DNA from: Pseudomonadota bacterium
Lineage (GTDB): Bacteria; Pseudomonadota; Alphaproteobacteria; Sphingomonadales; Sphingomonadaceae
Direction of reading: 5' to 3'
Length of the DNA stretch: 64,000 nucleotides
Assembly: GCA_021847605.1 (NCBI GenBank)
Contig: JAJZQN010000007.1
Span: 62,001 to 126,000, forward strand
Position numbers and translations under genes: made by a program. Positions 58,017-64,000 of this stretch are shown here, one piece after another. The first letter of the stretch is position 1; each line of letters opens with the position of its first letter. Below the pieces are notes generated by a model. The model was given only the letters and a program-made list of their open reading frames with translations, did not search any database and was not told the DNA's origin.

Positions 58017-58074
58017 TTACTAGATGATGACGCATCTTGCGGAACCGCGACACCCCGTCCCATCTTCTGCACAT

Positions 58075-59067
58075 ATGGCCCATTGGATCGAACCTCACCC
58101 CAACGGTATTTATGTCCGCCCCGCCGATGCCTGGATCGACCCGTCCCTGCCGCAAGAGCGGGCGCTGGTAACGCACGGCCATGCCGATCATGCGCGCGGC
58201 GGGCATGGCCATGTGTGGGCTACACGCGAGACGCTGGCGATTATGGCGCTGCGCTATGGCACCGCCAGCGGCACAGCCGTCGGCTATGGCGAAGAGATAC
58301 GGATGGGCGGCGTCACGATCAGCTATGTGCCGGCAGGCCATGTGTTGGGATCGGCGCAGATCCTGCTGGAACATGCTGGGGAGCGCGTGGTTGTGACCGG
58401 CGATTACAAGCGTCGCCCCGATCCCACGTGCCTGCCGTTCGAGCCGGTGCCTTGCGACATATTTGTAACCGAAGCGACTTTTGGCCTTCCGGTATTTCGT
58501 CATCCCGATACAGGCAGCGAAATGGACCGATTGCTGGGTGCGCTCCAGGCCAATCCGGATCGCTGCGTATTGGTGGGCGCCTATGCGCTGGGGAAAGCAC
58601 AGCGGGTGATCTGTGAGTTGCGCGCACGGGGGCATCATGAGGCCATTTATATCCATGGCGCATTGGAGCGGATGTGCGCGCTGTATCAGGAGTTCGGCGT
58701 CGATATGGGCGAATTGCGCCCAGCTACCGGCGTGGTGGCAAAGGAGATGTGCGAGCATATCGTGCTGTCACCACCCTCAGCGCTCAATGATCGATGGAGT
58801 CGGCGCCTGCCCGACCCGATCACGGCGATGGCATCGGGGTGGATGCGTGTACGGCAACGCGCGCGGCAGAAGAATGTCGAACTGCCTCTCGTCATTTCCG
58901 ATCATGCCGACTGGGACGAACTGACCGACACCATTCGCGAGGTCGCGCCCACCGAAACATGGATCACCCACGGATGCGAGGAAGCTCTGCTGCACTGGTG
59001 CATGACCCATCAGATCCGTGCGCGGGCGCTGGCGATGGCTGGCCGCGAAGACGAGGATGAGGGATAA
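58075..59067 (+). CDS. Ligase-associated DNA exonuclease (MBL fold)
   Basis: The 330-aa metallo-beta-lactamase and beta-CASP-type nuclease has THGHADHARGG (His34, His36, Asp38, His39), VPAGHVLGSAQILLEHAGE, VTGDYKRRPDPTC and ISDHADWDEL. It matches the family found with a bacterial ATP-dependent DNA ligase (TIGR04122 type) and processes DNA ends. Start ATG 58075 is preferred over ATG 58024. The stop overlaps the ligase start by one base. Confidence 0.9.
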   Translation: MAHWIEPHPNGIYVRPADAWIDPSLPQERALVTHGHADHARGGHGHVWATRETLAIMALRYGTASGTAVGYGEEIRMGGVTISYVPAGHVLGSAQILLEHAGERVVVTGDYKRRPDPTCLPFEPVPCDIFVTEATFGLPVFRHPDTGSEMDRLLGALQANPDRCVLVGAYALGKAQRVICELRARGHHEAIYIHGALERMCALYQEFGVDMGELRPATGVVAKEMCEHIVLSPPSALNDRWSRRLPDPITAMASGWMRVRQRARQKNVELPLVISDHADWDELTDTIREVAPTETWITHGCEEALLHWCMTHQIRARALAMAGREDEDEG

Positions 59068-60650
59068 TGCGGGCTTTCTCCAAATTACTCGACGGCCTCA
59101 TCTACACGCGGTCACGCAACGGCAAGCTGGCGTTGATCGCGACCTATATGCGCGAGGCGCCCGACCCGGACCGAGGATGGGCGTTGGCGGCGCTGACCGG
59201 CAATCTGGATTTTAAATCGGTCAAGGCGTCCGCCATCGGCGAGATGATCCGGGCGCGGACCGATCCGGTGTTGTTCGAGATGAGTCGAGACTATGTCGGC
59301 GATCTTGCCGAAACGGTCGCTTTGCTCTGGCCCAAAAATGAAGACCAGCCCGCCGAGGTAGATGACGGATCACTGAGCCTGTCCGGCATTATTGATCGCC
59401 TGCATGGTGTCAGCCGGGCGGCGGCGCCTGATGCGCTGGCGGCGATGATGGATCATCTGGATGCATCGGGGCGCTTTGCCTTGCTGAAACTGGCGACCGG
59501 GGGGCTGCGCGTGGGTATTTCCGCGCGCCTTGCCAAGACCGGCTTTGCGCAGGCATTCGGGCTGGACGTCGATGATGTCGAGCAGGTTTGGCATGCCTTG
59601 TCACCTCCCTATACAGCCCTGTTCGACTGGGCGGAGGGACGGAGCGGTCGGCCCGACCCGGAGGGTACGCCCTATTTCCGCCCCTTCATGCTGGCCCATC
59701 CGCTGGAGGCCGACAGCGTGGACCTGACCGACTATGCTGCGGAATGGAAATGGGACGGCATTCGTATCCAGATCGTTGGCACGGGATCGGAAACGCGCCT
59801 TTACAGCCGGGCTGGCGACGACATCAGCGGCAGTTTTCCAGAGATTGCCGAGGCTTTCACCGGGCATGCCGTACTGGACGGCGAATTGCTGGTGAGGGGG
59901 GAGGTTCAGGGCGGCGAGGCTGCCAGTTTCAATGCGCTTCAACAACGGCTGGGCCGCAAGAGCGTGACCGCGAAGATGATGAGCGATTTTCCGGCGTTCG
60001 TGCGGCTGTATGACCTGTTGATCGAGGGCGACGATGATTTGCGCGCCCTCCCCTGGAGCGACCGTCGTTCGCGGCTTGAAGCCTATATGGCGCAGCTTCC
60101 GACCAATCGGTTCGATTTGTCCGCGCTGATCGAGGCGGCAGATTTCGAAGCGCTGGCCGATATTCGTGCCGGCGCCCGCGATGCCGCGATCGAGGGGGTG
60201 ATGCTGAAACGGCGGGACAGCCCCTATGTCGCCGGGCGGAAGGCGGCTTTGTGGTACAAGTGGAAGCGCGATCCGCTGACCGCCGATTGCGTGATGATGT
60301 ATGCGCAGCGCGGGCATGGGAAACGATCCTCCTTCTATTCCGATTATACGTTTGGCTGCTGGACCGAAGGCGGCGAATTGCTGCCGGTGGGAAAGGCCTA
60401 TTCCGGCTTCACCGATGAAGAGCTGAAATGGCTCGATCGCTTCGTCCGGCAGAATACGGTCAACCGCTTCGGCCCAGTGCGGGAAGTCGAAAAGACGCTG
60501 GTGCTGGAGGTCGCATTCGACAGCATCCATGACAGCAAACGGCATAAATCCGGCCTTGCCATGCGCTTCCCGAGGATTGCCCGGATCAGGAAGGACAAGC
60601 CTGCCAGCGAAGCCGATACGGTGGCGGGCCTGAAGCGGCTGGTTAGCTGA
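59067..60650 (+). CDS. ATP-dependent DNA ligase (exonuclease/helicase-associated)
   Basis: The 527-aa ligase has an N-terminal DNA-binding domain and the adenylation motif EWKWDGIRIQ with Lys228. GEAASFNALQQRLGRK, GVMLKRRDSPYVAGRK (motif IV/V) and LWYKWKRDP follow, with an OB domain at the C-terminus. This TIGR04120-type ligase usually occurs with an exonuclease, an Lhr-type helicase and a phosphoesterase. Only the exonuclease is adjacent here. Confidence 0.92.
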   Translation: MRAFSKLLDGLIYTRSRNGKLALIATYMREAPDPDRGWALAALTGNLDFKSVKASAIGEMIRARTDPVLFEMSRDYVGDLAETVALLWPKNEDQPAEVDDGSLSLSGIIDRLHGVSRAAAPDALAAMMDHLDASGRFALLKLATGGLRVGISARLAKTGFAQAFGLDVDDVEQVWHALSPPYTALFDWAEGRSGRPDPEGTPYFRPFMLAHPLEADSVDLTDYAAEWKWDGIRIQIVGTGSETRLYSRAGDDISGSFPEIAEAFTGHAVLDGELLVRGEVQGGEAASFNALQQRLGRKSVTAKMMSDFPAFVRLYDLLIEGDDDLRALPWSDRRSRLEAYMAQLPTNRFDLSALIEAADFEALADIRAGARDAAIEGVMLKRRDSPYVAGRKAALWYKWKRDPLTADCVMMYAQRGHGKRSSFYSDYTFGCWTEGGELLPVGKAYSGFTDEELKWLDRFVRQNTVNRFGPVREVEKTLVLEVAFDSIHDSKRHKSGLAMRFPRIARIRKDKPASEADTVAGLKRLVS

Positions 60651-61313: not shown

Positions 61314-62519
61314 TTGAGCAAGGTTCTGGTCATCGGCGCAGGCGGCGTCGGGTCTGTCGCGGTCCACAAGATGGCGATGAACCCCGATATTTTCAGCCAT
61401 ATCACGCTGGCCAGCCGACGTATCGTCAGTTGCGAAAAGGTCGCCGAATCGGTCAAGAAACTGGTCGGCGTGGACATCGACGTGGCTCAGGTGGATGCCG
61501 ACAATGTCGAGGAAACCATCGCGCTGATTGAAAAGGTTCAGCCCAAGCTGGTCGTGAACCTGGCCCTGCCCTATCAGGATCTGGCGATCATGGACGCATG
61601 CCTTGCGACCAAGACCGATTATCTGGACACCGCCAATTATGAACCGCGCGACACGGCGAAGTTCGAATATAGCTGGCAATGGGCCTATCAGGAACGCTTC
61701 AAGGAAGCGGGCATCATGGCGCTGCTGGGTTCGGGCTTCGACCCCGGTGTCACCAGCGTCTTCGCCGGCTATATCAAGAAGCATCTGCTCGATACCATCG
61801 ACACGCTCGACATTCTCGATTGCAATGGCGGCGACCATGGCCAGCATTTCGCCACCAACTTCAACCCGGAAATCAACATCCGCGAAGTGACCGCACCGTC
61901 GCGCCACTGGGCGAATGGCGAATGGGTCGAAGGCCCGGCGCTGAGCCACAAGCAGAGCTTCGACTTCGAGGCTGTCGGCCCGAAGAATATGTACCTCATG
62001 TATCATGAGGAATTGGAGAGCCTTGCGACCCATTATCCCGAAATCAAGCGCATCCGTTTCTGGATGACGTTTGGCGACGCTTACCTCAAGCATCTAGAAG
62101 TGCTTCAGAATGTGGGCATGACCCGCATCGATCCGGTGATCTACAATGGTCAGGAAATCATCCCGCTTCAGTTCCTGAAGGCCGTATTGCCCGAACCGTC
62201 CAGCCTGGGTTCGACCACCAAGGGCAAGACCAATATCGGCGACATCGCCACCGGCACCAAGGATGGCGCGCAGAAGACCGTCTATGTCTATCAAATCTGC
62301 GACCATGAAGAAGCCTATGCCGAAACCGGCAATCAGGCGGTGAGCTATACCACCGGCGTTCCCGCGATGATCGGCGCCGCCATGATGCTGACCGGCGAAT
62401 GGAAGGGCGAAGGCGTGTTCAACATCGAACAGTTTAATCCCGATCCCTTCATGGACATGCTGAACAAGCATGGCCTGCCCTGGCAGGTGAAGGAACTGGA
62501 CGCGCCGCTCGACTTTTGA
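61314..62519 (+). CDS. Carboxy(nor)spermidine dehydrogenase
   Basis: The 401-aa saccharopine-dehydrogenase-family enzyme has the NAD(P) motif VIGAGGVGSVAVHKMA, LALPYQDLAIMDACL and GSGFDPGVTSVFAGY. With nspC downstream it makes carboxyspermidine (or carboxynorspermidine) from aspartate semialdehyde and a diamine. The start is TTG 61314 (MSKVLVIGAGG), with GGAG 8 bases upstream. An alternative label is saccharopine reductase, but the neighbour decides. Confidence 0.9.
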   Translation: MSKVLVIGAGGVGSVAVHKMAMNPDIFSHITLASRRIVSCEKVAESVKKLVGVDIDVAQVDADNVEETIALIEKVQPKLVVNLALPYQDLAIMDACLATKTDYLDTANYEPRDTAKFEYSWQWAYQERFKEAGIMALLGSGFDPGVTSVFAGYIKKHLLDTIDTLDILDCNGGDHGQHFATNFNPEINIREVTAPSRHWANGEWVEGPALSHKQSFDFEAVGPKNMYLMYHEELESLATHYPEIKRIRFWMTFGDAYLKHLEVLQNVGMTRIDPVIYNGQEIIPLQFLKAVLPEPSSLGSTTKGKTNIGDIATGTKDGAQKTVYVYQICDHEEAYAETGNQAVSYTTGVPAMIGAAMMLTGEWKGEGVFNIEQFNPDPFMDMLNKHGLPWQVKELDAPLDF

Positions 62520-62534
62520 CGATCCCTACGGGAT

Positions 62535-62615
62535 CGTCATCCCAGCGTAGGCTGGGATCTCATGCGGCATCGCCGTGCCCTCTCGCCTGAGACCCCAGCC
62601 TTCGCTGGGGTGACG
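62535..62615. repeat. Inverted pair of 28-base repeats before nspC
   Basis: A 28-base unit at 62535-62562 (starts CGTCATCCCAGCGTAGGCTG) recurs in reverse complement at 62588-62615 with 25 of 28 matches. Each unit also folds alone (CCCAGC/GCTGGG). The two can pair across a 25-base loop. A small GATCCC/GGGATC hairpin (62521-62535) precedes it. This sequence type is familiar from sphingomonad intergenic repeats. The right end reaches the nspC GGAG. Confidence 0.7.
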
Positions 62616-62627
62616 GAGTATGACGTT

Positions 62628-63800
62628 ATGGAAACCCGCGCCGGCGATCCTGCCGCTTTTGCTCATTTCGACCTGTATCGCGTCCCCTCGCCCGCTTTCG
62701 TGGTGGACGAGGCCGCGATCCGACGGAACCTGTCCGTCCTGCGCGACATCGGCGATCGCGCCGGGATCAAGGTGCTGGGCGCGCTCAAAGCCTTTTCCAT
62801 GTGGTCGCTTGGCGGCGTGCTGGGCGAATATCTGGACGGCGTGTGCGCTTCGGGCATCTATGAAGCGCGCCTTGGCCGGGAAGAATATAAGGGTGAGGTC
62901 GCGACCTATTGCGCGGCGTACAAGCCCGACGATCTGGCCGAAATCCTGAAAATTTCCGACCATGTAATCTTCAACAGTCCCGGCCAGATCGCCCGGATGA
63001 AGCCGGTAATCGATGCCGCGCGTGCCGAAGGCCGCGTGTTCGACATCGGCCTGCGCCTCAACCCCCTCCACCCGGAGGGCGAGGTGCCGAAATATGATCC
63101 GTCGCAGCCGCATAGCCGCCTGGGCTTCCCGGTCGACCAGTTGCGGCCTGAGCATCTGGAGGGGGTCGATGGCCTGCATGTCCATAATCTGTGCGAACAG
63201 GATTTCCTGCCGCTGGAGCGGACTTGGGCGGCGATCAAGCCACATGTCATGCCCCATATCGCCGGCCTTAAATGGCTGAATTTCGGTGGAGGGCATCACG
63301 TCACCCGCGCCGATTACCAGATCGACGACCTCATCGCCTTCCTGCAACGGATCAAGGGCGAGACTGGCCTTGAACTCTATATCGAGCCGGGCGAGGCGAT
63401 GGCGCTGGACGCGGGCATATTGATCGGCGAAATCCTCGACGTGATCGACAATGGCATGCCCGTCGCCATCACCGACATTTCCGCCACATGCCACATGCCC
63501 GACGTGATCGAGGCGCCCTATCGACCCGCCATGTTGCATGAGCAGGCGGAGGGCTCAGTGACCCGTCTGGGCGGTCCATCCTGCCTCGCCGGGGACATTA
63601 TCGGCGACTATCGAGTCCCCGGCGGGGCCGAGCCGGGGGCGCGCATCGCCTTCCTCGATCAGGCCCATTATTCGATGGTAAAGACCAACACCTTCAATGG
63701 CGTGCCGCTTCCTGCCATCTGGCTATGGAACTCGGAAACGGATCAACTCACGGAAATTCGGTCCTTTTCCTACGAGGATTTCAAGGCTCGTCTCTCCTGA
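62628..63800 (+). CDS. nspC: Carboxynorspermidine decarboxylase
   Basis: The 390-aa PLP enzyme of the alanine-racemase-fold decarboxylase family has the PLP lysine Lys54 in GALKAFSMWSL. LNFGGGHHVTRADYQ and EPGEAMALDAG follow, with the CHMPDVIEAPYRP segment that carries the catalytic cysteine. It decarboxylates carboxy(nor)spermidine to spermidine or norspermidine. ATG 62628 follows GGAG (62615-62618). The frame extends upstream into the repeat, which I exclude. Confidence 0.93.
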   Translation: METRAGDPAAFAHFDLYRVPSPAFVVDEAAIRRNLSVLRDIGDRAGIKVLGALKAFSMWSLGGVLGEYLDGVCASGIYEARLGREEYKGEVATYCAAYKPDDLAEILKISDHVIFNSPGQIARMKPVIDAARAEGRVFDIGLRLNPLHPEGEVPKYDPSQPHSRLGFPVDQLRPEHLEGVDGLHVHNLCEQDFLPLERTWAAIKPHVMPHIAGLKWLNFGGGHHVTRADYQIDDLIAFLQRIKGETGLELYIEPGEAMALDAGILIGEILDVIDNGMPVAITDISATCHMPDVIEAPYRPAMLHEQAEGSVTRLGGPSCLAGDIIGDYRVPGGAEPGARIAFLDQAHYSMVKTNTFNGVPLPAIWLWNSETDQLTEIRSFSYEDFKARLS

Positions 63801-64000
63801 CGCACGGTTCGTGGCAGCGGACGAAACAAAATTTACATGCGTGCTTTACAGGGGGGACCCCTACGCATATATCGGCCGTCCGCTGCCCCATGGGACTTCC
63901 ACCGCAAGGCAGCTTTTTCGCCCTGAACTACACTGGAGGTCCCTTGAGTTGCACAAGCATCATAGCGCGCTGGGGGTAGCGACCGCCCTCACACCGGCAG
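63801..64000 (+). ncRNA. Structured 5' leader resembling the speF RNA motif (truncated by window end)
   Basis: No convincing gene fills these 200 bases, but several perfect stems do. GGCAGCGGACG (63813-63823) pairs with CGTCCGCTGCC (63877-63887) and encloses ATGCGT/ACGCAT (63837-63842, 63863-63868) stacked on AGGGG/CCCCT (63850-63854, 63858-63862). GGGACTTCC (63892-63900) pairs with GGAGGTCCC (63935-63943). The size, nesting and neighbouring polyamine genes fit the alphaproteobacterial speF motif (Rfam RF00518) that precedes ornithine decarboxylase genes. The downstream gene is outside the window; identification is from memory of the motif and inference. Confidence 0.6.
63890..63979 (+). other. 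Possible 29-codon leader ORF inside the structured leader
   Basis: ATG 63890 opens 29 codons (MGLPPQGSFF at the start, IIARWG at the end) and stops at TAG 63977-63979. No ribosome binding site is visible and the start lies just after a strong stem. It may be chance, or a translated leader peptide. Low support. Confidence 0.2.

Follow-up and report, generated by a model that had tools for sequence, protein, structure and literature searches.

In enterobacteria, a short frame upstream of the ornithine decarboxylase (ODC) gene encodes the leader peptide SpeFL, at which ornithine causes arrest. SpeFL is 34 aa long and its SD is not shared with the main gene, unlike the uORF of the locus described here. 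An ODC leader of alphaproteobacteria is speF (RF00518), and its description reports that speF RNA was not bound by ornithine, lysine, diaminopimelate, putrescine, cadaverine or spermidine (PMC1273637). RNA control of polyamine genes is also seen with the spermidine riboswitch, a SAM-I variant, but that system has a SAM-I architecture, occurs in Gram-positive bacteria and works by transcription termination (PMC10853860). The closest system is the odc1 motif, alias uORF-25-1, an alphaproteobacterial ODC leader (RNA Biol 2021; PMC8632094). It is described there as having a hairpin stem, P1, that carries the SD on its right shoulder, and as forming a pseudoknot by pairing of its 5' end with the P1 loop. 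Its two UUG starts are separated by 2 nt, and the length of the uORF peptide is constant at 11 aa. With the Sphingomonas echinoides reporters of that paper in E. coli, both UUGs were used, the uORF giving approximately threefold more, and main-ORF expression was lost or lowered when conserved bases were altered in M4-M6. Because M4-M6 lowered this expression, the fold is not simply repressive. PMC8632094 was the only paper found in our literature search on the "odc1 motif", and odc1 is not mentioned in the main text of PMC11109978.

The window, a 64,000-nt stretch of a Sphingomonadaceae genome, carries a conserved element at 63882-63979 that we consider almost certain to be a member of the odc1 motif. 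The element lies directly upstream of an ODC gene and overlaps an 11-codon uORF as well as the ODC start. Here too the SD sits in the right shoulder of P1 and the two UUGs are 2 nt apart, and pairing and covariation point to the pseudoknot (63882-63887 with 63908-63913). No feature was found that separates the window copy from odc1, and this copy of an already published motif is ordinary as a discovery. It is very probably a regulator. Compared to PMC8632094, the promoter-like pair, the counts of compensatory pairs, the distribution in the family and the selection test on the uORF stop are new.

Gene context and the speF assignment

The polyamine context given in the original prediction held up, as an ODC-type gene follows casDH-like and nspC-like genes and the RNA element overlaps the ODC start region. 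All of these genes are on the + strand. The casDH-like gene (carboxynorspermidine synthase family; 61314-62519) scored 443.1 bits with NF043000, for which the cut-off is 800, and has saccharopine dehydrogenase domains. The nspC-like gene (carboxynorspermidine decarboxylase family; 62562-63800) scored 371.9 bits with TIGR01047 (cut-off 409); its coordinates are those of the longest frame, and the real start is possibly further downstream. It had been claimed that no gene fits in the space after nspC. However, the ODC gene begins within the window at TTG 63949, behind the SD GGAGG at 63935-63939, and the last 52 bases of the window (63949-64000) are therefore coding. The rest of the gene is on contig C30. 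The window ends 24 bases short of the end of its own contig, C20 (126024 bases), whose final 127 bases are identical to the first 127 of C30. This shared stretch is an overlap of the assembly. Since no third match to the 127 nt was found in the window's own genome, the join between the window end and the ODC contig looks simple.

The ODC product is a 398-aa PLP decarboxylase with PF02784 and PF00278. Its nearest solved structures are lysine and ornithine decarboxylases, in agreement with the prediction that the next gene would be of this type. The best NCBIfam models are lysA-like and under cut-off and, therefore, ornithine is the likely, not proven, substrate. Among 80 related loci, 42 have at least part of nspC upstream of ODC at a distance of no more than 2.5 kb, and 3 have it downstream on the opposite strand. 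In these loci, synteny with nspC is common but not required.

Some other features of this neighborhood were noted. The gap between casDH and nspC (62519-62615) holds strong hairpins, matched only by sub-threshold miRNA and hammerhead models, that look like an intergenic repeat. At 58024-60650, a predicted metallo-beta-lactamase-type exonuclease gene adjoins an ATP-dependent DNA ligase gene, both named by eye from their translations. A long hairpin directly behind ODC in one related locus (L062:3713-3807) drew sub-threshold hits to miRNA models on either strand and is probably a terminator or a repeat.

The leader itself had been predicted to be of the speF type. As with speF, the host is an alphaproteobacterium and the gene downstream belongs to the ODC family. 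Membership of RF00518 is set at a covariance-model score of at least 37 bits, and the RF00518 search of 62001-64000, L001/L002 and 8 relatives gave no match up to E 10. Of 190 genomes across the class, 4 had an RF00518 match above cut-off, and the two weak matches in the window's own genome were both on other contigs. In the other direction, our covariance model R1, whose sole pairs are the two P1 arms, scored no better than chance (best E 1) in the six best RF00518 loci (four over cut-off and two below). As far as covariance models can tell, with no match in either direction tried, the speF assignment is refuted, and we regard it as almost certainly wrong. No Rfam 15 family reached its cut-off in 62001-64000, L001/L002 and 8 relatives, and none of the sub-threshold matches listed was on the leader's strand inside the leader.

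P1, the crossing helix and the promoter-like pair

The window was compared with 79 of 80 ODC relatives, L010 being left out as it is cut at a contig end. The blocks GGGACTTCC, CGCAA-GGCAG and GG[AG]GGTCCC-TTG were all kept in 80/80 loci. On the + strand of the window, the 5' arm of the crossing helix (A; GCUGCC, 63882-63887) is followed by the left arm of P1 (B; 63892-63900), which is the anti-SD GGGACUUCC and is represented by the first of these blocks. Next are the conserved loop ACCGCAA (63901-63907), the 3' arm of the crossing helix (A'; GGCAGC, 63908-63913) and the right arm of P1 (B'; GGAGGUCCC, 63935-63943), which contains the SD. P1 forms 9 of 9 pairs, and the SD is buried in the stem. 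Since A pairs with A' and B with B', the block order A, B, A', B' means that the two helices cross and make a pseudoknot.

Close relatives alone showed almost no variation, and covariation among them was uninformative. The structure was scored on 87 matches (84 distinct), which comprised the window, 21 loci from L005-L169 and 65 of the 67 from L170-L236; L202 and L205 were out because of long inserts, and 13 duplicates were left out among the collected loci. In this set, 96.8% of the cells pair, compared to 47-59% with slid partners. Four of the six A/A' pairs show double-sided changes (8 cells) and all double changes fall in A/A', as P1 had one-sided changes only. Shuffles of the whole structure gave means of 0.8 pairs and 0.9 cells double-changed, and 0 of 500 reached the observed values. 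With slid structures, double changes still appeared in 1-3 pairs and 1-6 cells and, thus, the double-change count is weak by itself. Because slid versions score too and the related rows are non-independent, more weight falls on the percentage paired and on the covariation score, which was 0.118 compared to at most 0.072. The number of pair types was equalled by 3 of 500 shuffles.

The variant GCAGCC/GGCTGC was found in at least genera g280, g297, g298, g300 and g349, and GCCGCC/GGCGGC, GTTGCC/GGCGAC and GCTGCT/AGCAGT are further forms of A/A'. Anchoring without regard to pairing was possible for 119 of 138 sequences, and 113 of these 119 formed 6/6 pairs in A/A'; 3 of the 6 misfits look like wrong anchors. 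Alignment A2 was made from 47 of 67 sequences, and an extra G or a long loop is present in most of the others. In alignment A3, rows such as L213, L230, L234 and L236 carry additional hairpins beside the 5' arm, where their alignment is probably wrong; such rows were retained and count against the crossing helix. Taken at the level of pairing and covariation, these data show P1 joining the SD to the upstream anti-SD and the predicted crossing helix completing a pseudoknot.

Plain folding cannot show pseudoknots, and the plain fold of the putative transcript was not unusual (z -1.19; 26 of 200 shuffles were as good). In that fold, the partner of the 5' arm is the uORF end. This pairing of GCUGCC formed 6/6 in 23 of 119 sequences compared to 7.6 shuffled, which is above chance and not general, and it was rejected as a candidate. 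Separately, L062, L163, L184 and others have an extra small hairpin (for example, GCCGCAAGGC) in the variable stretch between the P1 arms, and in L228, L229, L230, G706 and G866, for example, a hairpin separates the pseudoknot arm from P1.

The stems named in the original prediction included an 11-bp helix of 63813-63823 with 63877-63887. Its complementarity is perfect in the window, and the fold of 63801-63951 (-55.3 kcal/mol, z -2.25; 3 of 200 shuffles equal or better) contains this helix, an inner hairpin and the SD stem. However, the helix was not kept in the 79 related loci. Over the 60 nt upstream, the longest match to the 3' arm averaged 4.05 in these relatives compared to 4.16 when shuffled; it was 11 in the window, 9 in L007 and 7 in L005, L050 and L075. 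The helix encloses the promoter-like pair described below, with its own 5' arm (63813-63823, + strand) upstream of that pair. Given no conservation beyond the shuffled level, the long helix was rejected as a functional unit. The claimed stems are present in the sequence, but what is conserved is another unit (63882-63979), and the stem that related genomes do keep is that of the SD. The original observation was, therefore, partly confirmed and its interpretation partly supported.

Transcription attenuation would use part of the same helix, with two alternative partners for GCUGCC: 63813-63818 upstream, or GGCAGC with its trailing TTTTT (63908-63918) as an intrinsic terminator. The two pairings are mutually exclusive in the window, where a T run does come after the 3' arm. 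Still, the upstream partner is not conserved and is probably not transcribed, the T run is missing in many relatives, such as Sphingopyxis, and a terminator scan restricted to loops of 3-8 found none. The route through GGCAGC and the T run was rejected since it is not conserved in the alignment, and we think attenuation is very improbable here.

A -35-like TTTACA (63845-63850, + strand) precedes, with a 17-nt spacer, a -10-like TATATC (63868-63873, + strand) that was assigned from the sequence and from its counterparts in relatives. TTTACA is 35-39 nt upstream of an anchor, defined as the first base of GCTGCC or the C/T immediately before it, in 80/80 loci. In the relatives it is mostly followed by a CATATAT- or CCTATNT-like box. 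Transcription may begin near 63880, just before the pseudoknot arm. A sigma-70 scan with the E. coli consensus flagged no promoter, TTTACA at 63845-63850 included, and so the argument for a promoter is one of conservation. In the spacer (63851-63860 in the window), a palindromic G/C run, GGGG...CCCC, directly after TTTACA was seen in 33 of 80 loci and is possibly an operator at the DNA level.

The overlapping uORF and its stop

One SD serves both UUG starts, 63944 and 63949. The first opens the uORF (63944-63979, + strand), which has 11 codons and ends at a UAG (63977-63979) located 28 nt inside ODC, over ODC codons 10 and 11. The uORF was examined in 175 related loci, 79 via ODC and 96 via R1, the window itself not being included. 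TTG+2+TTG was found in 169/175. The first start is TTG in 170, GTG in 4 and ATG in 1, and the second is TTG in 174 and ATG in 1; the changed starts, GTG+TTG (4/175) and ATG+ATG (1/175), remain start codons. The uORF has 11 codons in 172 loci, 9 in two and 10 in one, whereas PMC8632094 reports no length other than 11. A stop at codon 12 was present in 174/175 (TAG 151, TGA 20, TAA 3), including both loci with the 9-codon uORF; the 10-codon locus, L190, has a different start spacing.

The stop constrains the codons that ODC uses. ODC codon 10 (n = 174) is GTA in 86, CTA in 50, CTG in 20, TTA in 16 and ATA in 2; 154 of the 174 thus carry GTA, CTA, TTA or ATA, and the other 20 use CTG ATT to give TGA. 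In the remainder of the 79 ODC genes, GTA makes up 3.2% of Val codons, and CTA and TTA make up 0.8% and 0.2% of Leu codons. When ODC residues were held and codons were drawn from ODC usage, the codon-12 stop, present in 138 of 138 distinct sequences, was reached in a mean of 6.7 and a maximum of 15 over 300 resamplings. For this set, repeats of one genome under two names (for example, L039 and L174) were merged and L190 was dropped. The related sequences are non-independent, but all three stop codons occur at this position, and the stop is kept whether the ODC residue is Val, Leu or Ile. The resampling shows that the small overlapping frame is preserved even though ODC has to use rare codons for it, and the fixed stop suggests that uORF termination matters. 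Another frame, from the ATG within CCCC-ATG-GG, was rejected because Sphingopyxis has CAGG there.

These results bear on an alternative centered on the uORF, in which a ribosome would stall or be slowly released at the fixed stop in response to ornithine or polyamines, thereby blocking or reloading the main ODC start, while the fold only sets access. The resampling result and the rare codons at ODC codon 10 favor it, as do the known ornithine arrest at SpeFL and the six peptide positions (4, 6, 7, 8, 10 and 11) that vary less than resampled. However, position 5 is more variable than resampled, positions 3 and 9 show no difference, and the kinship of the sequences lowers peptide entropies by itself. 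Also, the peptide is not strongly conserved, with residues 5-11 differing widely among the 175 loci, and 11 residues are short for a tunnel sensor. We consider this alternative rather unlikely. It is similarly doubtful, though conceivable, that selection acts on the place where the uORF ends and that the control device is this fixed termination point inside ODC, gated by a pseudoknot that chooses between starts 5 nt apart. In this reading, either termination would pause in response to polyamines or ornithine, or ribosomes would re-initiate backward at the start of ODC, with a modestly constrained peptide.

Distribution and proposed mode of control

R1 was searched in 246 genomes of the order. 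Matches at E <=0.1 were obtained in 162, of which 161 belong to the window's family. The element is, therefore, carried by at least 161 of the family members sampled. Each matched genome had one match, except the window's own genome, which had two because of the contig overlap. Two family members were unmatched among the genomes listed, and 64 further unmatched genomes were outside that list. The sole match outside the family (G417, E 0.05) is in an incomplete genome where no ODC relative was found. A stricter pattern search was positive in 331 of 397 family genomes; it undercounts, since some of the 66 negatives, such as G501 and G513, have an R1 match. G498 has an ODC (67% identity) with a degraded leader in which GGGGGTCTCTTGAGTTG and little else is kept. 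In genus g293 the strict pattern was absent in 10/10 genomes, and the best ODC relative in the three of them searched was 27-29% identical, suggesting that the ODC gene is missing there. Further copies that would indicate a regulon were not found above chance in the window's own genome, where the best E besides the contig overlap was 2.04. Class-wide, the exact pattern was present in 15 of 385 genomes, of which 3 are in the family and the other 12 differ in loop sequence.

An odc1-type short leader RNA that controls ODC translation is probably the best explanation overall. Within it, we lean somewhat towards SD sequestration with start choice, and a directly bound ligand of the polyamine pathway is a more tentative proposal. 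Transcription would begin just before the pseudoknot arm, and the folded element would restrict ribosome access. The conserved loop ACCGCAA may sense a signal, most likely a polyamine or ornithine. The output would be which of the two UUG starts the ribosome uses, and translation of the uORF would thereby compete with ODC synthesis.

Another possibility is that only the promoter and an SD hairpin are under conservation and the remainder is incidental. TTTACA at its fixed distance in 80/80 loci fits such an arrangement, and SD hairpins generally lower translation. Yet it leaves the compensated crossing helix, the CGCAA loop present in all 80 loci and the uORF stop unexplained, and a change in expression on loop mutation is already reported in part in PMC8632094. 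We judge it highly unlikely and prefer the odc1-type leader.

The locus corrects a plausible misassignment, since alphaproteobacterial ODC leaders are not all speF. Because no Rfam 15 family matched in the sequences searched, Rfam-based annotation would miss an element that at least 161 of the genomes sampled in one family possess. The uORF-stop result makes the question of how odc1 works directly testable. If the fixed-stop reading is true, a pseudoknot that selects the start codon, combined with an overlapping uORF of fixed length, would be a new regulatory mechanism.
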